Notes under the pieces: generated by a model
The model's input: the letters and a program-made list of their open reading frames with translations, nothing else
Told to the model about the DNA's origin: nothing
Databases searched by the model: none
Virus record (IMG/VR): IMGVR_UViG_3300049735_000130
Coordinates: 1 to 20,753 of that record
DNA: 20,753 bases
DNA from: a virus
Strand: one strand, 5' to 3'
Translations under genes and position numbers: made by a program
Shown: in pieces, positions 1 to 19,637 of the stretch
Numbering within the stretch: the stretch's first letter is position 1
Layout: each line of letters begins with the position of its first letter

Positions 1-3000
1 ATTAAAGCTAAAGAACAAGTTGAAAAAGACTTCAAAGGTGATCCAGATAAAGTTAGTGCCGCTAAGAAAGAAATTGATTTAAAGGCAGGAGTTAATAAAG
101 AACCAGAGCCTACTTCAGTAGAAGAAGTATCTCCAACCTCAAACATTCCTTTGTCTAAAGAAGGCAAGGTACTCGTAGCAATACCAAGAGAAATAGGTTC
201 TGATGCTGTACGTGTAGCATCTGTTAAACCGGGTAGACTTGATGGTGTTGCACAAGTAGATAGACCGGGAATGTCTGCATCAGACTTACTTGGAAAATTT
301 AAAAATAACCCGGATAGGTTTTATCTTGGGTATGTATCTCGCTCGCTCGTAGAAGATGAAGCAACCCTTCGAGCGCTGAAGGCTGATGGGAACAGGGAAA
401 AGCTATTTGAAGTCTTTGAGCCTATTGATGAAGTAAATGCACCAGAAGGCACAGTTAAACCAGAAGTACAGGAAACAAATTCTGCTAATGTTGATCCTTA
501 TGAAATAGGGACGCATGAAATGTTTGACACTACAAAGCTTACAACAGATCAAGAAAACGCTTTTGTGTTTGCATACAAAACTATGACTAATACAAAGACA
601 ACAAAAGCTGAAATAGAAAAGATGTTTTTTGGGGACGGAGAAAACAGACCAACACTAGGTAAATTTCTTAAAGAAGATTTATGGAGATGGACAGAAGATA
701 TACTGTCTAGTGGATGGAAGCAGGAAATAAATGGTGTCAACATACCTCTTGGTCAGAGGGTAAACTTATTAAGAGAGTTGCACGGAATACTTGCAGACGT
801 TGCTCCGGGTGGTATTAAGAAATCAAATGTAGATATTGAAACAAGTGTTAATAGTCTAAGAGATATTTTTTCCAGATCGAGTGCAGAAGAACTAGCAGAT
901 ATGGAGAGAGTTCTTCGCCTCACAACTAAAAATGCAGGGGTATCTCCAAGAATTTTACAAGTTGATAGAGAAGCTGAAACAACAAGCGGTCTTTATAGGA
1001 GATATTCTCGATCAATTATAGATAAAGATACAGGAAAAGCAAAACTAAAGGGTAGATATAATTATCTTGGTTTTACTAAAGTGGGTATGGGGAAAGGTGA
1101 TAACCAAGCAGCTCCGAATATTCCACACACCTCACCATCATTTATCTTTGCACACGAACTAGGTCATTGGGTGTTTCATAATTTATTAGACCCATCTGAT
1201 TTGCAAAAATATTTTAAAGCAGTAGGTCGTCATGTTGATGAAACAGGAAATTTAACGACTGAAGGAAGCGATTTTCTTTTATCTAAAGCTCCCAGATATG
1301 AAAGATACATACAAAAAAATGATGGATTATATAAGCAAAGCACGGGTCAAACCAACTGGAATAAAAGTCCGGGCGAGCATTTTGCTAACCAGTTTGCTCT
1401 GTATCTTCATCATCACCATGACCTTATGATTGTACCAGATAGAGGTCTGTGGGAAAAAGTTTCAAGGCTAGTTCGTTCTCTTTGGGAGAAAATGACAAAC
1501 AAAAATATTCTTGATAAAGAGTTAGAGCCTATCTTTCAGAAAATAATTACAAACAAGGATGAGTTTGAAATTCAAAAGTTTCATCTACCTGCACGTGAAG
1601 TTACCACAGCAGGTGGAAGAACATATCAGTCAAGATATGTTCAATGGCTTGAAAGTTATCGAGGTTTAAAGTTGGCAGTAGAGGACGACAATCCTGCGGG
1701 GATTATAGCTTACGCAGATGAGTTAGCTAATGCAATCAACGGGTCTACGGCAACTGACAGACAAGCAATGATGGCGGCTAGAGCTAAACAAAGATTAGCA
1801 ATGAAAGAGGGTCGTGATCCAGAAGCAGAAGCTTTCAGAGGTTATAAAGGTAGGTTAAGGGTCTTTGATGACAACAAAAACTTAACGGATAAATTACGTT
1901 CGGACTACAGAAAGTTAAAAGAAATGGTAGCACAGGGGACTGTAACAGAGTTTTTACCCGGTGAAGATATGGCAACTACCTCACACAATCCAGAAGTGAT
2001 CGAAGAGTTGAAAGCATTTCTACGATCAGAAGAATTTGACAGCAACATACAAGGGGCAATGGATTTATTTAACGATCAGTTTCTTTATTTAGAAGGTGCT
2101 GACATTCCAGAATATATACCAAGTCAGCAGTTAATTAATCTAAGAAAAGAAAAAAGTATTGGTTCACAGAGAAGAACAATAAGGAAAAAGAAATATCATC
2201 AAAGCATCAAAGCCGCTAGAACCAAAAGGCTTAAAGAAACTTTGTCGATGATGAGGGCTGAAGGTGGATACTATAGTAGAAATATTAGTGACAACCAAAG
2301 AAAAGGAAATTACTCACCTCAAGAAGTTGATCTTGTAACTGCATTGTCAGAATATCCGAAGTATCTCGATGAAGCAGGTGTACCTAATAAGTTTGGAAAA
2401 CAATTAGCGTCTAGAGTTAAGCACCTAGTAGCTACCAAAATTGAACCTATTGATAAATCTGTAGGTGATCCTCTTAGCAATCGCCAGTATACCGAACTCG
2501 ATCAGAACCAACTGATCTTTAGATATGCTACTGCTCTTAATAAGGGAGATCAAGGTATAGCAGATCAAGTTATGTTTGAGTTACAACAACGAAGATTTTA
2601 TAAGAACAACAGTCAAATCATACCAACAACTTCTGACAGAGTTAACAATGCGATAGACGATGAGCTTATGCAGTTATATACAGATAGCGAAGAAATAGGC
2701 ATACCTTCGTCTGCATCATTTAAAGTAAGAAACTTATTGGGTAAGATTACAAATAGAGGAAACGAGTTAACTCTATCCTCAAGAACAGTTGCTCACAGAC
2801 TTATGCTGTTAGGTGCAGAGTTCAATCCACAAACAACAAGCAAATCATTCAATGATTTTAGAACTGATGTAAGAAGGATTGGAGTTAATTTAACAAAGAA
2901 GGAGGATATTTCACAAAGCGTTGAAATGATCGCTCGTAGAGTTTTAACTTCTTCTGCGTTTGGTGAAGAGAAGATGGCATCTATCAGACGGGCAGCAGCT

Positions 3001-6000
3001 GAGTTTGGTTTTGAGCCAGAAGATACTATCGCTAAACTTGCTGTTGATGATTTAGATGCTTCTTCCGATAAGGCAACTCTTAAACAACTCACAAAAGATA
3101 TTGGTGAAAGCTTTGACAGTACGCTCGAAGAAGCATTAACGTCTATTCGATCAGAAATGAGAGAAGCAATTTCCTATGTAATGAATGGGCTTATCTCTAA
3201 GAAGGGTGCTAGAAAAAGATTTCATAATGCTACTGTCTATGGAGATATGTTAGGAACGAGGTCTGGTTTTGATCCAAGTTCTCCAAGCTTACACTTTATG
3301 GACGACATTCCTTCTGAATATGCAAACGACTATGCGAGTGATTTGCTTCGTACACTCAAGCCTTCTACTGTAAGAGGAATAAAATCTTTTACACAAACAG
3401 ACGATATGATCCCTTATTTTGTGGAAAGCTTAGAGGGTGATAATCTATTTGGTAATGGTATCAATGTTACAAACAGTCCTAATAATAATATAAAGAATAG
3501 CAAAGAAACTATTTTAGCAACTATCCCAGACAACTTTAAAGAATATGGTGAAGAGTTATTAGACGATTTAATTAATTTGCGGGATGGCATTAAATCAATG
3601 AGAGCGTTTGATAGGGCAGAACCAACAGACATTGCTCTTCAATATGATAAGGAAAAGGCTATCCTTGCTGACTTGCAAAGGATAGGTGCTACAAATCTAC
3701 CAACTTCGAGAGTTGTTTTTATTAAGGACAACAACCCTATAAATATGAATAAACGTATGGCAGGTAAAGACCCAAGCATCGTAGCCGTTATGGATGCTAT
3801 CGCTTCAAATACTACAAGAGCTATTGACAAAGACCTTATAGGTACATTCACACCAGAAGAAGCATACTCTATTTTTGTAGAGAAAGCAGGTGGTGGAATG
3901 AAGCTGAAGGAAGCTTTGAAAAAGGCAGGTTATACTTCACTTTCTGTAGGTAATAAAAAATCTATGATCGACCCTTTAAACATAAAGGATATAAGAAGTA
4001 GAGATTTTGTTGATGAGAAGTTCAACATGGGTGTTGTCCCGGCACCATCTGATCCAGTCCCATACCTCATAAAAGCTATGTCTACAGACAATGACACAGG
4101 AGCGGATGCGTTTATCCAAGTCGCAAGTGCTGCAGAACAAAGTGGTATACCTTCTAAAGTTGTAAATGTTTTAGATAAAGTGAGAAGAAAGAAAAATATC
4201 ACAAGCGCAGAAGGTGCTGAAATTAGAAAGGCATCTAAGTGGTCGCTCACAAAAACAAATGCACAGGTGATGAGACAGAATGGGATGCACCATTCTGCTA
4301 ACTTCTACGAGCCATCGAACGGAGATGCAGGTCACTTCGAGAGAGTGAACGCTCGAATGGGTAACTTCATATTGCCGTTAACACGTATGCTAAAAACTCT
4401 ACCCGATAGCCCAACTGCATTAGGTAGATGGTTAAATGATGGCTTGATCCAAATGTATGATGCCGCAATAGGAAGAGAAACAGGAACAAGAGCAGCACAA
4501 GAACTTTCTCTTGTAAATGTTGATGGCAACAGAAGGTCTATGCAACCAATGTCTAATCAAAGAATAGCTGCTGCGTTGAGAAACAAAGCAAAGATTAACA
4601 CCTTAAAGCCAGAGGAGAAGAAGGTCTTTGATTACGTTCGGTCTTACCTAGAAAATGCTATGGTTAGAATGAAAGAAAGTGGAATGGAAGTCGGTCACAT
4701 CCGAGAAGATTATTTCCCACAAATATGGAGAAAGGACTTAATAGAAAAAAACTACGACATGTTTGTGCGAATGATGACCCGATATTTTCAAGCTGAAACC
4801 GAACTTACTTCAAATCGTACAAAGATTTTAGGTCAAGACGATGCAAGAAAAATCGCAGAAAGAGTTGCAAATAAATTAATTGACAACGATGGTATCATGC
4901 CAGATGCCAAACATTTTGCTGATCCAAATAAAATGTCTGTCACAGGTAAAGACGATCATACAGACTTTCAAAGATTAATACGACTAGATCAAGGTGGATT
5001 AAAAGCTTTTGTTGATCCACTCAGACCGAACGATAACTTAGGTCAGTTCCTTGAGAATGATCTCATGGTTGCGATGACTAAGTATAGTGATAACTTGGAA
5101 CATCGCTTAGACATAACAAACAAATTTGGTGTTGGTGGTTTCGGTTTCTACGATTACCTAGCCGTACATGATGGTAAGCAAGATGCAATCAGCAGACTTT
5201 TATCCGGGGATAAGGTTCTTAAAAAGAATTATAAAAACTTTTTGAACTTGACGAAGGGTGTTGAGGAAGCACCAGAAGCCGTTGTCGCTACGTTCTCTGC
5301 TGATATTTTTAAAGCACCATTTCCTAACAAAGAAGCTACTCATACTCTTGTGAACGAACTTGTTTCTGATGCACAGAAAGGTGCATCTGTGTCACAGTTA
5401 AAACATAAAATTATGAATAGCTTGAACCTACAGAATGAACCTTCGCTTTCTGCAAAGAAAATGCACAAGAACTTTCAGTACAGAGCGGAAGCCATAGCGA
5501 ACGCTCTCCACGAAACAAAAGGTTTTCAAACTGAAATGTCGAGAGATGATTTAGCTTTCGCTGACGGGATGATGAACACCACCATTAGAAAACCAATCGA
5601 CGGATCAAATGGTCTATATAATTTAAAGACAGCAAGTAAACATTTGCGATCCTTTAATGCTGTAACCTTGCTTGGTTTCACAACTTTAACCTCTTTAGGT
5701 GATTTGGTTTTACCTCTAGTAAGAAGTGGAGACTTCGGTTCGTATAGAAGGGCAATTACTAAGATGATGGAAAACCCTGTATCGGGTAGTGCGTATAGGG
5801 ACATGATAAGAAACATAGGTGCAGCGACAGAGAATGTTGTCCATGATCGAATGACTAAAGCCTTTGGTGTAGACAATACGAAGTTCACATCTGGTTTCTT
5901 TACAGCTACGTTACTTACAAACTGGACTGATATGATGAGAGATGTGAGTGCAGCTGTAGGCTTCGAGCATTTTAAAGCTCAACAGAAATTAGCTCTGGAT

Positions 6001-6855
6001 TTCCCCGGCACAAAAGCAGGAAGGTTAGCCAAGAGACAACTCGAAGCGTATGGACTAAAGAGGTTCTACGAGGACAGCACGTTAAACATCGATTACATCA
6101 TGGAAACGAACGGATCAGCTAAACCTCACGATGAATATTATACTTTGTCTGCTGCTGTCCATCGCTTTGCAAACCAAACAATCTTTACGCCTAATCAAAA
6201 CGATCAGCCGTTGTGGGCGCAAACTCCAACTGGACAGATTATCTTCCAACTTAAATCATTCCCATTAATGATGACACGATTAGGAAGAGATGTTTTCCAA
6301 AAGGCTAGGAAGAACCCAGATGGTGACAGAGATTTACGACCACTTCTTTATTTTGCGGGTGCTGCCCCTGCTTTTGGTGCTGTTACTACAGGCACGAAAG
6401 ACATTATTCAGTCGAGGGGTGGTGAAGATAATAGGCAAATGCAACTCAGAGATCGTGCGATGTCATCGAAGTCAGAACTTTTTGCTGAACTTGGTATGAC
6501 ACAAAGGCAAGATATAATCGCAGGTTGGTATTTAGATGGGCTTCTTACAATGGGTGGTCTTGGTCTAATTGGTCAGCTTTTCTACGATAGTGCATCTCAG
6601 ATTGACAATGGTGATTATGGTGCATGGAGAATTATGGAACTATTCGCCGGACCGAGTATGGGTATTGCAAGAGATGCCATAGCCGTAGGTGCGGGTGCAA
6701 TGGAGTATGGCTACGATGCACTTGGTGGTGAAACAACCAATGCAAAAGAAAGACAAATGTGGCGTGAGATCACAGGTCGAGTACCGATTGGAGGTCAGAT
6801 CACAGGTGTCAAGGAATACTTTGTAGATAAAATCGCAGGTGAAAGAGAAGGCTAA
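1..6855 (+). CDS. Giant phage polyvalent/internal virion-type protein with HExxH peptidase motif (5' end outside window)
   Basis: The frame is open from the first base, so the protein starts upstream of the window; 2284 residues are visible. Counting codons from base 1, a zinc-metallopeptidase motif HELGH lies at about 385-389, inside a hydrophobic context (FIFAHELGHWVFHNLL). A Glu at about 459 (SPGEHFANQFALYL) is well placed as third zinc ligand, as in gluzincins. The long middle is charged and mostly helical, without a motif I can name. The last 250 residues carry glycine-rich hydrophobic stretches (LLYFAGAAPAFGAV, GLLTMGGLGLIGQLF, the region near AIAVGAGAMEYGY) and the segment IIFQLKSFPLMMTRLGR, a type I recall from large phage polyvalent proteins. 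Such proteins are usually packaged and ejected with DNA; peptidase plus possible membrane-inserting C-terminus fits that, by inference. Its stop overlaps the next start (TAATG). Exact family unproven. Confidence 0.85.
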   Translation: MKAKEQVEKDFKGDPDKVSAAKKEIDLKAGVNKEPEPTSVEEVSPTSNIPLSKEGKVLVAIPREIGSDAVRVASVKPGRLDGVAQVDRPGMSASDLLGKFKNNPDRFYLGYVSRSLVEDEATLRALKADGNREKLFEVFEPIDEVNAPEGTVKPEVQETNSANVDPYEIGTHEMFDTTKLTTDQENAFVFAYKTMTNTKTTKAEIEKMFFGDGENRPTLGKFLKEDLWRWTEDILSSGWKQEINGVNIPLGQRVNLLRELHGILADVAPGGIKKSNVDIETSVNSLRDIFSRSSAEELADMERVLRLTTKNAGVSPRILQVDREAETTSGLYRRYSRSIIDKDTGKAKLKGRYNYLGFTKVGMGKGDNQAAPNIPHTSPSFIFAHELGHWVFHNLLDPSDLQKYFKAVGRHVDETGNLTTEGSDFLLSKAPRYERYIQKNDGLYKQSTGQTNWNKSPGEHFANQFALYLHHHHDLMIVPDRGLWEKVSRLVRSLWEKMTNKNILDKELEPIFQKIITNKDEFEIQKFHLPAREVTTAGGRTYQSRYVQWLESYRGLKLAVEDDNPAGIIAYADELANAINGSTATDRQAMMAARAKQRLAMKEGRDPEAEAFRGYKGRLRVFDDNKNLTDKLRSDYRKLKEMVAQGTVTEFLPGEDMATTSHNPEVIEELKAFLRSEEFDSNIQGAMDLFNDQFLYLEGADIPEYIPSQQLINLRKEKSIGSQRRTIRKKKYHQSIKAARTKRLKETLSMMRAEGGYYSRNISDNQRKGNYSPQEVDLVTALSEYPKYLDEAGVPNKFGKQLASRVKHLVATKIEPIDKSVGDPLSNRQYTELDQNQLIFRYATALNKGDQGIADQVMFELQQRRFYKNNSQIIPTTSDRVNNAIDDELMQLYTDSEEIGIPSSASFKVRNLLGKITNRGNELTLSSRTVAHRLMLLGAEFNPQTTSKSFNDFRTDVRRIGVNLTKKEDISQSVEMIARRVLTSSAFGEEKMASIRRAAAEFGFEPEDTIAKLAVDDLDASSDKATLKQLTKDIGESFDSTLEEALTSIRSEMREAISYVMNGLISKKGARKRFHNATVYGDMLGTRSGFDPSSPSLHFMDDIPSEYANDYASDLLRTLKPSTVRGIKSFTQTDDMIPYFVESLEGDNLFGNGINVTNSPNNNIKNSKETILATIPDNFKEYGEELLDDLINLRDGIKSMRAFDRAEPTDIALQYDKEKAILADLQRIGATNLPTSRVVFIKDNNPINMNKRMAGKDPSIVAVMDAIASNTTRAIDKDLIGTFTPEEAYSIFVEKAGGGMKLKEALKKAGYTSLSVGNKKSMIDPLNIKDIRSRDFVDEKFNMGVVPAPSDPVPYLIKAMSTDNDTGADAFIQVASAAEQSGIPSKVVNVLDKVRRKKNITSAEGAEIRKASKWSLTKTNAQVMRQNGMHHSANFYEPSNGDAGHFERVNARMGNFILPLTRMLKTLPDSPTALGRWLNDGLIQMYDAAIGRETGTRAAQELSLVNVDGNRRSMQPMSNQRIAAALRNKAKINTLKPEEKKVFDYVRSYLENAMVRMKESGMEVGHIREDYFPQIWRKDLIEKNYDMFVRMMTRYFQAETELTSNRTKILGQDDARKIAERVANKLIDNDGIMPDAKHFADPNKMSVTGKDDHTDFQRLIRLDQGGLKAFVDPLRPNDNLGQFLENDLMVAMTKYSDNLEHRLDITNKFGVGGFGFYDYLAVHDGKQDAISRLLSGDKVLKKNYKNFLNLTKGVEEAPEAVVATFSADIFKAPFPNKEATHTLVNELVSDAQKGASVSQLKHKIMNSLNLQNEPSLSAKKMHKNFQYRAEAIANALHETKGFQTEMSRDDLAFADGMMNTTIRKPIDGSNGLYNLKTASKHLRSFNAVTLLGFTTLTSLGDLVLPLVRSGDFGSYRRAITKMMENPVSGSAYRDMIRNIGAATENVVHDRMTKAFGVDNTKFTSGFFTATLLTNWTDMMRDVSAAVGFEHFKAQQKLALDFPGTKAGRLAKRQLEAYGLKRFYEDSTLNIDYIMETNGSAKPHDEYYTLSAAVHRFANQTIFTPNQNDQPLWAQTPTGQIIFQLKSFPLMMTRLGRDVFQKARKNPDGDRDLRPLLYFAGAAPAFGAVTTGTKDIIQSRGGEDNRQMQLRDRAMSSKSELFAELGMTQRQDIIAGWYLDGLLTMGGLGLIGQLFYDSASQIDNGDYGAWRIMELFAGPSMGIARDAIAVGAGAMEYGYDALGGETTNAKERQMWREITGRVPIGGQITGVKEYFVDKIAGEREG

Positions 6856-11734: not shown

Positions 11735-11956
11735 ATGAAATTCGATATTCAGACTTTAATTGATGATCTTGGTGGTGCTTCGAGCGTCGCGAAGAAACTC
11801 GATATTGGCAGGACTGTCCCCTATGGGTGGACTAGAAGAAATTTTATTTCCTCCGCTTACCTTTCAAAAATCAAAGAGGTTGCACCGCACCTCGATATTA
11901 ATTCTTACTTTGTGGAGGACTATAATAATGACAAACATAACGGAGGCAGCACTTGA
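11735..11956 (+). CDS. Small HTH regulator, Cro/YdaS-like
   Basis: A 73-residue protein with a helix-turn-helix pattern: LIDDLGGASSVAKKLDIGRTVPYGWTRRNFISSAYL. The 'GG.s.vAk.Ldi....vy.W..r..i.' signature is that of small phage Cro/YdaS-type repressors that recognise operators through a lambda-like HTH. AGAGGA lies about eight bases ahead of the ATG. It sits at the divergent junction between the leftward recombination operon and the rightward replication gene, the classic location of an early switch, so its likely job is to repress one or both promoters in 11653-11734. The next gene starts inside its 3' end at 11928, so the two are translationally linked. Ligand operator not demonstrated. Confidence 0.8.
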   Translation: MKFDIQTLIDDLGGASSVAKKLDIGRTVPYGWTRRNFISSAYLSKIKEVAPHLDINSYFVEDYNNDKHNGGST

Positions 11957-13883
11957 ATACTTGGACAGAGGTTGGGTAAGTGTACCGATCAATCCTAAAA
12001 CAAAAGTCTGCCCTTTCGGATGGGGACAAATAAGCGAAAGCAAAACACTTCCAACACACGAAGAAGTTGAGAAATGGTTTGAACCTTATCCAAATTACGA
12101 CATCGCTATCCTAACAGGTAGACTTAGTAATCTTGTTGTTGTCGATTGTGACAACATGGAAGCTGTTAATAAAGCTAAAGAGCTTGGACTAACTAGAACT
12201 CCTGTAGTGGTGGAAACCAAAAAAGGTTTCCACTTTTATTATTCGCATCCAACTGGTGACGCTTGGATCAAGAGCTTCGTTGGTGCAAATAACTCTGGTG
12301 TTGAGTGGGCAAAGTGTTCTGGTCTTGATCTACGTGGATCGAAGGGCATGGTATTCGCTCCACCTTCTGTTGGAAAATCGTGGCAACTAATGCCCGGTGC
12401 CGACTTCGATGATCTACCTATGTTTAACATGCCTACGATTGTTCAACCTAAAGTAGAGAGTAAGGTTATTAATCTCGAAGATTTTAGGTTAGAACATGTT
12501 AGCTTTGTTGGTGTTAAGCCAGAAGGCTATGGTGTTTGGGAAAGAACTAAAGAAGATGTTGATGAGCTTGGAAGAAAAATTGATGCGGGTGATGGTTGTC
12601 ATTCAAGGATCGTATCGCTCGTAGGCGAGCTTGTAGCAATCGGCATGACAAATCACGATGTCTACAAAAAGTGTAGAGAGTTTTGTGACAACTTTATGTT
12701 GAACCCTTTTGATGACGACAAGATCATCAACACTATCGATGACATTACAAAGTCTGACAAAAGAAACCATCCCGAAAGAGATGTGGCTAAAGATGATATA
12801 ATAAAGAAAGAAGAAAGCAAAGAACCAGACACAAGACTGATTACTGTCGCTGACATTGAAAGGCTTGAGGGGGAGTTAGGTTCGGTACAATATTTTGTTG
12901 AGCCATTCATTCCCACAACTGGAACGATCATACAGTTTCATGGATATTCTGGACATGGGAAGAGTACGTTTGCTAGACATTTACTCTACTCAACATCAGC
13001 AGGACAAGATGCCTTTGGTTGTTTCATGCTTCATCGTAGACCACGTGTTCTTTATTTAGATTTTGAAAACAGCCGTGCTAATGTTGTCAACTTCTTAAAG
13101 CAAGCGAGAGCTACGTATGGCGATGCAGGGGATCATTTTAAAATGTGGTGTCCTTTTGATAATCGAAGCATGATGAACTTAAAATCTGAAGTTGGATTAA
13201 ATGCTTTTAAATATTTAGTCAAAGCATCTAAACCTAACATTGTTGTGATTGATACTATACGATCTGCCTTCCCAAGCATGATAGAAAATTCGTCGGACGA
13301 TTGGAGCTATGTCAATGCGATTTGTTTAGCTTTAAGAAACGAAGGAATAAGTGTTATTCTTCTGCATCATTCCAACAAGCCATCTGACAATGGACAATCT
13401 GGTAGGGAAGCAGGATCAACAAATCAACTTACAGTTTTGGAAACTCAGATTAAGATTACTCAAATCTTCGAGGACGAAACGACTGCCAATGTAAAAGCAG
13501 GGATACATGATCCCGATGTTTTCTTAAATCTTCGCACACCTCCTGCTATTAAAACGGGTGAGGTTCTAGACCTAATGTACGAAATAAGGTATGGTAAAGT
13601 GCGAGAACCAACAAACGTACATGAGCCATTTCACCAGATCGGAATGGCATACGATCCAATCATGTCTACGTTTAGACCTGTTGCCTACAAGAGTGCAAAG
13701 CAAAGAGCCGTTATGTATGCACGAGAATGGGAAGATAAGTCTGGTGCAAAAAGACCTGCCCTTTCCAATGAAGAGATCGCTTCGAGAATTAAGAAGCCTT
13801 TGTATATGGTGAAGGAATGGACGGAAGAAATCAGAACAACAGATCACGCAAGTCATCTAGCGGAACTAAAGTCCAACCGATAA
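11928..13883 (+). CDS. Prim-pol/helicase replication protein
   Basis: A 651-residue fusion of primase and helicase. The N-terminal 'bifunctional primase-polymerase' domain (about 5-165) shows the metal-binding DCD at 73-75 after a hydrophobic strand (NLVVV), then TKKGFHFYY with His102, and LDLRGSKGMVFAPPS. A primase C-terminal helical segment follows (about 222-280, HSRIVSLVGELVAIGM). A RepA/RecA-like helicase domain starts near 330: Walker A GYSGHGKST at 339-347, Walker B NIVVIDT with Asp442, and VILLHHSNKP near 477-485. It would both prime and unwind at the phage origin. I chose ATG 11928 because GGAGG lies nine bases upstream and the primase domain begins at once; the frame stays open farther upstream but that part overlaps the HTH gene and looks non-coding. 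Confidence 0.92.
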   Translation: MTNITEAALEYLDRGWVSVPINPKTKVCPFGWGQISESKTLPTHEEVEKWFEPYPNYDIAILTGRLSNLVVVDCDNMEAVNKAKELGLTRTPVVVETKKGFHFYYSHPTGDAWIKSFVGANNSGVEWAKCSGLDLRGSKGMVFAPPSVGKSWQLMPGADFDDLPMFNMPTIVQPKVESKVINLEDFRLEHVSFVGVKPEGYGVWERTKEDVDELGRKIDAGDGCHSRIVSLVGELVAIGMTNHDVYKKCREFCDNFMLNPFDDDKIINTIDDITKSDKRNHPERDVAKDDIIKKEESKEPDTRLITVADIERLEGELGSVQYFVEPFIPTTGTIIQFHGYSGHGKSTFARHLLYSTSAGQDAFGCFMLHRRPRVLYLDFENSRANVVNFLKQARATYGDAGDHFKMWCPFDNRSMMNLKSEVGLNAFKYLVKASKPNIVVIDTIRSAFPSMIENSSDDWSYVNAICLALRNEGISVILLHHSNKPSDNGQSGREAGSTNQLTVLETQIKITQIFEDETTANVKAGIHDPDVFLNLRTPPAIKTGEVLDLMYEIRYGKVREPTNVHEPFHQIGMAYDPIMSTFRPVAYKSAKQRAVMYAREWEDKSGAKRPALSNEEIASRIKKPLYMVKEWTEEIRTTDHASHLAELKSNR

Positions 13884-13894
13884 GATGTAATCCT

Positions 13895-13996
13895 ATGGCA
13901 CATGATCTTCGGCAACCGAAGTATCGTGTGCGTGTAGTTGAAGATCAAACTAAAAAAATATATCGACAGAGAAAGCACAAAAAAAATCCCCCCTAA
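13895..13996 (+). CDS. 33-residue basic phage protein
   Basis: A tiny ORF 11 bases after the prim-pol/helicase stop: MAHDLRQPKYRVRVVEDQTK, ending in a Lys/Arg-rich tail with NPP. The start of this peptide (DLRxPKYRxRVV) is like very short conserved proteins I recall from phage genomes, which is why I include it. No strong Shine-Dalgarno is visible (only TAAGAT-like), so it may depend on translation of the gene before it. Its last codons overlap the A-run and C-run of the - strand terminator hairpin, so the same bases serve both. Confidence 0.5.
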   Translation: MAHDLRQPKYRVRVVEDQTKKIYRQRKHKKNPP

Positions 13997-14023
13997 GAGC
14001 CGTTTCTTCGCAGCTAGGGGGGA
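13979..14023 (-). terminator. Rho-independent terminator reading leftward
   Basis: Arms TCCCCCCTA (13987-13995) and TAGGGGGGA (14015-14023) pair perfectly over nine bases around a 19-base loop. Read on the reverse strand, the stem is followed at once by eight U (A-run 13979-13986). On the forward strand no U-run follows. This is therefore a leftward terminator, yet no reverse-strand gene lies to its right in the gene-poor region. It implies a leftward transcript starting between about 14024 and 14362. Confidence 0.8.
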
Positions 14024-14041
14024 GGTTTGTGTTATTGTACT

Positions 14042-14111
14042 AACTATATTTTTCATATAGTTTTGGAGCAGAGTATACGAGAGGGAGGAACTCAATACTC
14101 TGTAAACTATA
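14042..14111. repeat. Competing hairpins with a purine-rich (SD-like) loop
   Basis: AACTATAT (14042-14049) pairs with ATATAGTT (14055-14062) around a five-base loop. Alternatively TATAGTTT (14056-14063) pairs with AAACTATA (14104-14111), enclosing a second perfect stem, CAGAGTAT (14069-14076) with ATACTCTG (14095-14102). The 18-base loop holds GAGAGGGAGGA. The two foldings use the same central bases and exclude each other. TGTAAACTAT at 14101-14110 recurs as a direct copy at 14132-14141. The block could act as switching RNA or as a DNA operator/iteron. Confidence 0.55.
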
Positions 14112-14151
14112 GTAACAACTAAAGTTATTTATGTAAACTATTATTTTTTTT

Positions 14152-14265
14152 GAACGTAGAGAATTTAAACTCCTCTTATCTCCGTTGAGGCACTACGTTC
14201 TCACTTCTCAGAAACGCAATTTCCTTTGCGTTTCCTCGTCCCTCGCACAACTACGGAGGAGTTTA
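14152..14265. repeat. Interleaved inverted repeats (pseudoknot geometry) around a strong SD
   Basis: Stem A: GAACGTAG (14152-14159) with CTACGTTC (14193-14200). Stem B: TAAACTCCTC (14166-14175) with GAGGAGTTTA (14256-14265), all ten bases complementary. B's first arm lies in A's loop and its second arm outside, so A and B can form a pseudoknot. Between them stands a compact hairpin, GAAACGCAA (14211-14219) with TTGCGTTTC (14226-14234) and a six-base loop. On the forward strand B's second arm is the ribosome-binding site of the 12-codon ORF at 14267. A local alternative, CCTC (14172-14175) with GAGG (14187-14190), would free it. Confidence 0.6.
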
Positions 14266-14287
14266 CATGTGTTCGCTAAAAAGTCAA
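14260..14287 (-). promoter_or_regulatory. Possible leftward promoter for the structured RNA
   Basis: Read on the reverse strand: TTGACT (14287-14282), a 16-base spacer, TAAACT (14265-14260). The -35 matches five of six and the -10 four of six sigma-70 consensus positions. It is upstream of, and directed at, the leftward terminator ending near 13979. The -10 coincides with one arm of the ten-base inverted repeat. Confidence 0.35.
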
Positions 14288-14305
14288 CCCCTACGAGCAA
14301 AATAG
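14267..14305 (+). CDS. 12-codon leader-type ORF
   Basis: ATG at 14267 is preceded by GGAGGAG at 14255-14261, five bases away, one of the best ribosome-binding sites in the window. It encodes MCSLKSQPLRAK and stops at TAG 14303-14305. The ribosome-binding site is one arm of a ten-base inverted repeat, so it can be hidden by pairing. The stop codon is the first part of TAGTTGTG, which can pair either upstream (CACAACTA, 14246-14253) or downstream (CACAACT, 14318-14324). This is the arrangement expected of a leader peptide, but no run of one regulatory codon is seen, and chance cannot be excluded. Confidence 0.35.
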   Translation: MCSLKSQPLRAK

Positions 14306-14334
14306 TTGTGTCTTTTTCACAACTGTGTTATATA
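14304..14334 (+). promoter_or_regulatory. Promoter with overlapping dyad, ahead of the lysis-side operon
   Basis: TTGTGT (14306-14311), a 17-base spacer, TATATA (14329-14334). A start near 14341 leaves GAGG (14351-14354) as ribosome-binding site for the TTG-start gene at 14363. A perfect dyad AGTTGTG (14304-14310) / CACAACT (14318-14324) covers the -35 and much of the spacer, as a repressor operator would. This probably drives at least the first genes of the rightward run to 17648. Confidence 0.5.
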
Positions 14335-14362
14335 AGTTATCAAAAATTTTGAGGCAGATAAT

Positions 14363-14725
14363 TTGGCAAAACGACTTATCCTCTCCGATGCGGAGCAGGA
14401 GTGGTTAAAATGTAATCATTATAAATACACACACAGGCAACTGGGTAAAAAGTTTGGTGTCTGTGTGGATACAATGCGTCGGCAATTAATGAAGATGGAA
14501 CTTCAATACTTTCCCGGTGCCAAGTATCAACGCAGGGTCGAACCTAAAAGATGGACACGACCTTGCTCAGTATGTGGCGATCGTACTCCTAGACCAAAGT
14601 ACCAGTACAGATGCACCTCATGCCATGAGCGTGAAGAAGGAGTTGATCGTGGGGCATACAACAAAGATAAAAAAGTTCACATTTCACTAGGAGGATTTAA
14701 TCTTGGCAAACCCACAGAAGTCTAA
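14363..14725 (+). CDS. HTH plus zinc-ribbon DNA-binding protein
   Basis: A 120-residue protein starting at TTG 14363, with GAGG eight bases upstream. The N-terminal half (about 8-45: EQEWLKCNHYKYTHRQLGKK then FGVCVDTMRRQLMKMEL) reads as a homeodomain-like HTH of the kind that picks a target by its last helix. The C-terminal half has CSVC (Cys68, Cys71) and CTSC (Cys84, Cys87), a CxxC-12-CxxC zinc ribbon. It is the first gene after the structured region and its promoter, so it could regulate the late/lysis genes or its own promoter. A terminase-small-subunit-like or endonuclease-associated DNA-binding role is the alternative. The next gene starts inside its 3' end. Confidence 0.7.
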   Translation: MAKRLILSDAEQEWLKCNHYKYTHRQLGKKFGVCVDTMRRQLMKMELQYFPGAKYQRRVEPKRWTRPCSVCGDRTPRPKYQYRCTSCHEREEGVDRGAYNKDKKVHISLGGFNLGKPTEV

Positions 14726-19548: not shown

Positions 19549-19594
19549 TGGTGCTGCCGAAGAGATTTGAACTCTTGACCTCTCCCTTACCAAA
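19549..19594 (-). other. attP: attP core: 3' half of tRNA-Thr(GGU)
   Basis: On the reverse strand this stretch reads as the 3' part of a tRNA: anticodon loop TTGGTAA (anticodon GGT, Thr), stem strand GGGAG, variable AGGTC, T-arm AAGAG-TTCAAAT-CTCTT (perfect 5/7/5), acceptor strand CGGCAGC, discriminator A and encoded CCA. The upstream side does not continue into a D-arm or a matching acceptor strand, so there is no complete tRNA. The 5' anticodon strand would be TTCCT, pairing with GGGAG through two G-U wobbles, so identity to the host gene probably ends about there. A partial tRNA beside an integrase is the standard picture of attP, which restores the host tRNA after integration. Confidence 0.85.
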
Positions 19595-19637
19595 GGAACT
19601 ACGTACCCAAAGACACACAACAGAAGTTACTAATACG

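Follow-up and report, generated by a model that had tools for sequence, protein, structure and literature searches.

The locus and its phage family

The window (the whole stretch of 20,753 nucleotides analysed here) belongs to a marine phage, and the relatives of its prim-pol in IMG/VR span 99% to 37% identity. Between the prim-pol/AAA helicase gene and a conserved HTH/zinc gene, both read rightward, lies an interval of 362 bases (13979-14340), which is the subject of this study (Table 1). The one named phage matched by the window prim-pol is Roseobacter phage CRP-810 (record L133), at 36.7% identity, and the two share the gene order small HTH gene, prim-pol, HTH/zinc gene, and Holliday junction resolvase. 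Comparison of the window's ORFs and families with the CRP-810 record shows that the CRP-810-type order extends to the opposite-strand recombination genes and the integrase. A DNA-level similarity search among named phages gave nothing relevant. CRP-810 is described as the type of a globally distributed, mostly temperate phage family represented in Roseobacter, SAR11, and sphingomonads, with prophages known from SAR11, Poseidonocella, and Sphingomonadaceae (PMC11288001).

The HTH/zinc gene matched no Pfam family at E 0.001, and its protein had no relative in the bacterial genomes searched. Its counterpart in CRP-810 (L133:12001-12294, plus strand), unannotated in that record, also sits between the element described below and the Holliday junction resolvase. 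Elsewhere in the window, an open-ended frame of 2284 aa at 1-6855 (plus strand) carries a zinc-protease-like HELGH motif and is apparently a virion protein. Just past the integrase gene, 19552-19624 (minus strand) gave a weak Rfam tRNA match (30.1 bits vs. a cut-off of 29) that ARAGORN did not call, and is possibly an attachment-site tRNA fragment.

Table 1. Features of the element and its flanks, in window coordinates unless a record is named
Feature	Position	Strand	Basis
Prim-pol/AAA helicase gene, left flank of the element	11922..13883	+	Pfam PF09250 and PF13481
Conserved HTH/zinc gene, right flank	14363..14725	+	Alignment: likely helix-turn-helix and four-cysteine (zinc-ribbon-like) motif
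P1 left arm (TAAACTCCTC)	14166..14175		Perfect 10-bp complement of 14256-14265; covariation in relatives
P1 right arm, covers the -10 box and stops a few bases short of the expected start	14256..14265		Covariation
-35 box TTGACT	14282..14287	-	TTGAC or TTTAC in all 35 representative relatives
-10 box TAAACT, inside the right arm of P1	14260..14265	-	Conserved in 35 relatives
P3 hairpin, 9-bp stem 14211-14219/14226-14234	14211..14234	-	Compensatory G-C/C-G change in L003 vs. the window
Predicted small RNA, ~275 nt	13979..14254	-	Promoter and terminator positions; fold z -5.7
Intrinsic terminator	13979..14023	-	9-bp perfect stem 13987-13995/14015-14023, U8 at 13979-13986
Loop hairpin 14069-14076/14095-14102, unpaired UCCUCCC at 14083-14089	14069..14102	-	Anti-Shine-Dalgarno motif
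Small gene in CRP-810, convergent with the prim-pol end, unannotated	L133:11435-11752	-	Clade conservation

The interval had been singled out from its sequence alone for a dense set of perfect inverted repeats, and counting confirms this. When spacers of up to ~150 nt are allowed, perfect inverted repeats of 8 bp or longer number 10 in the interval, whereas dinucleotide shuffles yield 0.85 (p 0.005, the lowest value that 200 shuffles can give). With the same minimum length and a spacer limit of 100 nt, the interval is the densest of 113 equal-size windows. The leftward strand (278 nt) folds with a z-score of -5.7 against shuffles, and the rightward strand less markedly (z -3.2). Among the repeats, those recurrent in relatives are P1, P3, the loop hairpin, and the terminator. 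In the relative L003, the GAACGTAG/CTACGTTC stem is altered in one arm, and the TGTAAACTAT direct repeats, which the sequence-only reading had offered as part of a DNA origin, are not conserved, just imperfect traces being left in L003. Some of the interval's inverted repeats thus do not matter.

The same element is found behind the prim-pol gene, in the same place and order, in 80 loci (35 distinct) of marine phages of the CRP-810 type. Read along the minus strand, it consists of a -35 box, 17-18 nt, a -10 box, a purine-rich stretch, P3, another purine-rich stretch, and lastly the segment complementary to the -10 region (P1). Because representatives were picked by a GTCAA-type box plus an inverted repeat, the presence of the element is partly by construction, which we countered with control sites and a covariance model. 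The inverted-repeat score had a median of 24 at the element, whereas the 299 control GTCAA sites taken from these loci averaged 13, and the model found one strong site per large phage record wherever E below 0.001 was reached. The model is weak on the distant L045 and misses CRP-810 and L064, all three of which were recovered by the inverted-repeat search. By that search, the element was absent, or weak, unconvincing, and discarded, in L048-L051, L057, L061, L070, L076, L078-L080, and L083-L088. From these sequence comparisons, we consider it probable that CRP-810-type temperate phages conserve a leftward transcription unit in this interval.

A promoter and its complementary segment

The leftward promoter-like site at 14287-14260, already proposed from the letters, is borne out by its conservation in relatives. 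It reads TTGACT-16-TAAACT in the window and TTGAC-N(17-18)-TA in the family (with TTTAC as the -35 in L024, L028, and L093), is of sigma-70 type, and has nearly invariant spacing; the combined -35/-10 match is 8-11 of 12 positions in 35/35 relatives. No second leftward promoter upstream scored above shuffles or chance, and the idea that such a promoter places P1 within the RNA was dropped for that reason. On the other side of the promoter, ahead of the HTH/zinc gene, AGTTGTG/CACAACT motifs recur, at 14303-14331 in the window and on the right-hand side of the element in its relatives; these are perhaps operator or rightward promoter elements, and their sigma-70-type scores were not clearly above shuffles.

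P1 links the untranscribed -15 to -4 region of this promoter to a segment ~80 nt into the transcript, an arrangement for which we know of no precedent. In an alignment of 18 sequences, the helix is 99.3% paired, with five pairs showing changes on both sides (16 such cells), and its covariation score was reached by 0 of 500 shuffles; shuffling leaves the effect of relatedness in place, but sliding the partner by 1-3 columns abolishes the signal. P1 changes come paired, with a single G.U cell, in an edge pair. Examination of relatives for compensatory changes, proposed along with the original observation, thus shows that the sequence at 14166-14175/14256-14265 varies while its complementarity stays. 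The complementarity is often 12-19 bp long and is present in 35/35 distinct elements, its inner edge lying 29-34 bases from the -35 start with one exception. Paired changes nearly without wobble intermediates are also what would be expected if template switching from one arm to the other, rather than selection for pairing, maintained the complementarity, and if function were confined to the promoter, P3, and the tail; given the universal presence of P1 at a near-constant distance from the -35 box, we regard this as quite improbable.

Another explanation is that the arms are inverted operators of a fast-evolving repressor, which would loop DNA from the -10 box to ~80-100 bp downstream, and it would account for one arm covering the -10 box and for both arms changing together between phages. 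Yet the arms do not recur beyond chance as dispersed copies in the sequence searched, the complementarity often reaches lengths of 12-19 bp, and paired changes occur in P3 too, so that this reading appears highly improbable. A repeated, stoperator-type operator was dropped likewise, there being no several dispersed copies. Pairing of P1 beyond the -10 box towards the -35 box, as single-strand promoters require, was not supported (combined p about 1) and was set aside, the -35 box lying outside the hairpin.

Since P1 ends before the expected start and no better promoter was found upstream, one of its arms lies outside the RNA, and P1 therefore cannot be the stem of an RNA starting at the leftward promoter. 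Together with the lack of -35 pairing and of dispersed operators, this leaves action in single-stranded DNA, in an RNA-DNA pairing, or in a rightward RNA, or else template switching. As P1 pairs an untranscribed segment, a DNA-level role is plausible, and it is the one that we tentatively favour.

For P3, a compensatory change of the kind proposed for testing in its stem was found in L003 (Table 1). MAFFT left P3 unaligned across lineages, so its conservation rests on per-sequence hairpins rather than on a column count. Its loops are of the stable GNA, GNNA, or GNNNA type in 11 of 34 distinct elements on the minus strand, versus 2 of 34 on the plus strand, and the linkers flanking it are about 67% purine on the minus strand. 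These loop types and linker purines, together with the minus-strand small gene described below, support leftward transcription. Wobbles in P1 and P3 (11 G.T vs. 21 A.C on the plus strand, the two being scored symmetrically for P1) gave no significant strand preference.

Both flanking genes point rightward and the plus strand folds well too, so the structure could instead work in a rightward transcript, either as a 3' stabiliser of the prim-pol mRNA or as the leader of a downstream operon. We find this improbable given that the leftward promoter and the loop motif are conserved, and that loop types and purine skew favour the minus strand. The specific leader that the sequence-only reading had envisaged did not hold up: it is not conserved, its 12-codon rightward ORF having lost the start codon to CTG in L003, and its supposed ribosome-binding site is just the -10/P1 arm, which varies freely between relatives.

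The predicted small RNA and its alternative tails

If it starts, as estimated, 5-8 nt past the -10 box (14254-14252) and stops at the U8 run, leftward transcription would yield the RNA of about 275 nt that had been predicted with its terminator at 13979, and comparison of promoter, structure, and terminator across relatives supports it. A leftward terminator is found at the equivalent position in L003, L013, L015, L016, L021, L022, L028, L093, L099, L102, L114, and L125. The loop hairpin preceding it shows a compensatory change, from CAGAGTAT/ATACTCTG in the window to CAGAGTGT/ACACTCTG in the near-identical L002/L011. Its anti-Shine-Dalgarno motif recurs as UCCUCCC, UCUCCC, or CCUCCC before the terminator in 14 of 15 tails, where shuffles predict 1.1 and the opposite strand gave 0. 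These motifs have a high predicted unpaired probability in most cases and often lie in a hairpin loop.

In the clade of CRP-810, a conserved gene for a small protein (NRxKYPEIAxxVDxVRxxFPxAKV) takes the place of the small-RNA tail; in most clade members it starts 8-40 nt past P1 on the minus strand, and it had no confident Pfam or PHROG family. Most lineages without this gene have a strong leftward terminator instead. On the prim-pol tree, the small-gene form makes up one clade, and the small-RNA form occurs throughout the other branches, among them the sister group of the small-gene clade. The sorting of representatives by tail form leaves L031 and L115 unplaced, and in these scans L008, L018, L029, L033, L038, and L042 showed no recognised terminator, anti-Shine-Dalgarno motif, or small gene. 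In L062 and L063, a short cysteine-rich frame (CPFC...CPVC) on the minus strand, directly left of P1, precedes the small gene. In the window's own branch, the product is rather likely to be a stand-alone small RNA of ~275 nt, judging from its sequence features.

Neither gathering nor relaxed thresholds gave an Rfam family match to the element (the best sub-threshold match was RefA9, 26.4 bits vs. a cut-off of 49), so the covariance search suggested with the first reading of the interval returned no known family at gathering score; ARAGORN placed no tRNA there either. The predicted folded RNA with its leftward promoter, kept family-wide, is absent from the databases.

The closest likeness is to alphaproteobacterial small RNAs. 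CCUCCUCCC hairpin loops, read as anti-Shine-Dalgarno, occur in SmelA075/SmelA099 (PMC3927594), and the CcsR/cuckoo RNAs, cited in PMC10253847, are alphaproteobacterial anti-Shine-Dalgarno small RNAs with CCUCCUCCC loops. These share with our element a short (here predicted) RNA, anti-Shine-Dalgarno hairpin loops, and an intrinsic terminator, and the known hosts of CRP-810-type phages are alphaproteobacteria too. The element differs in that its motif is shorter than CCUCCUCCC (UCCUCCC or UCUCCC, carried by one or two hairpins), in being phage-borne with a long structured 5' domain, and in having a sigma-70-type promoter (TTGACT/TAAACT) and prim-pol and HTH/zinc flanks rather than the RpoH promoter and DUF1127 gene of CcsR/cuckoo.

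Possible roles in the phage

Phages have other short terminated transcripts beside a replication or regulatory region, such as the late-promoter 6S RNA of lambda and oop. The predicted RNA resembles these in its place beside a replication gene and in its termination, but it shows no sign of antitermination or of a downstream late operon, and its structure and loop motif differ. In Frpo and the single-strand promoters of filamentous phages, the -35 and -10 are both within a folded stem. The leftward promoter, too, has an element that could fold into a hairpin in single-stranded DNA; unlike in those promoters, this holds for the -10 region only, the -35 box being outside.

On the RNA side, the open UCCUCCC loop may pair with the Shine-Dalgarno (GGAGG/GGGAG) of phage or host messages, and this pairing would lower translation of the bound messages. 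Such messages may include those of the phage's own replication genes. The complementarity of the loop to the ribosome-binding sites of the prim-pol gene and a presumed SSB gene exceeds that of random stretches, and in L096 the loop matches the prim-pol ribosome-binding site of its own phage over a strikingly long stretch (-19.5 kcal/mol). A phage's own loop did not match its targets significantly better than the loops of other phages did (p 0.05-0.95 across six genes), and the candidate of loop-target co-evolution was rejected, its group test failing.

On the DNA side, P1 may act, for example, through folding of the displaced non-template strand or through pairing of the RNA back onto the promoter, and would then serve as a brake or a replication-linked switch. 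A self-gating promoter or replication switch of this kind, in which the non-template strand or the RNA folds back onto the promoter and one branch of the family also yields an anti-Shine-Dalgarno small RNA, is a tentative proposal that we hold possible though doubtful.

In our view unlikely is that the core (promoter, P1, and P3) is a replication element, in which leftward transcription would open the DNA, one strand would fold into P1 and P3, and the transcript or the adjacent prim-pol would prime DNA synthesis on the spot. The core always adjoins the prim-pol helicase, is kept even in the absence of a small-RNA tail or small gene, and pairs a DNA-only segment through P1, whose paired changes with their lone edge G.U would suit such a role. 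However, the -35 box outside the hairpin sets it apart from known single-strand promoters, there are no conserved iterons, and GC skew, suggested earlier as a means of mapping an origin, shows no turn at 14.2 kb; the anti-Shine-Dalgarno loop and terminator would also be left without explanation. Jointly, these observations are probably best explained by a conserved leftward unit that would encode an anti-Shine-Dalgarno small RNA lowering translation, with P1 acting at the DNA level.

If this is true, one branch of a family reported to occur worldwide shares a small-RNA gene, next to the replication gene, that would be a candidate for the control of phage replication or lysogeny in hosts of very high abundance. 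CRP-810 itself carries the core of the element and has a cultured host.
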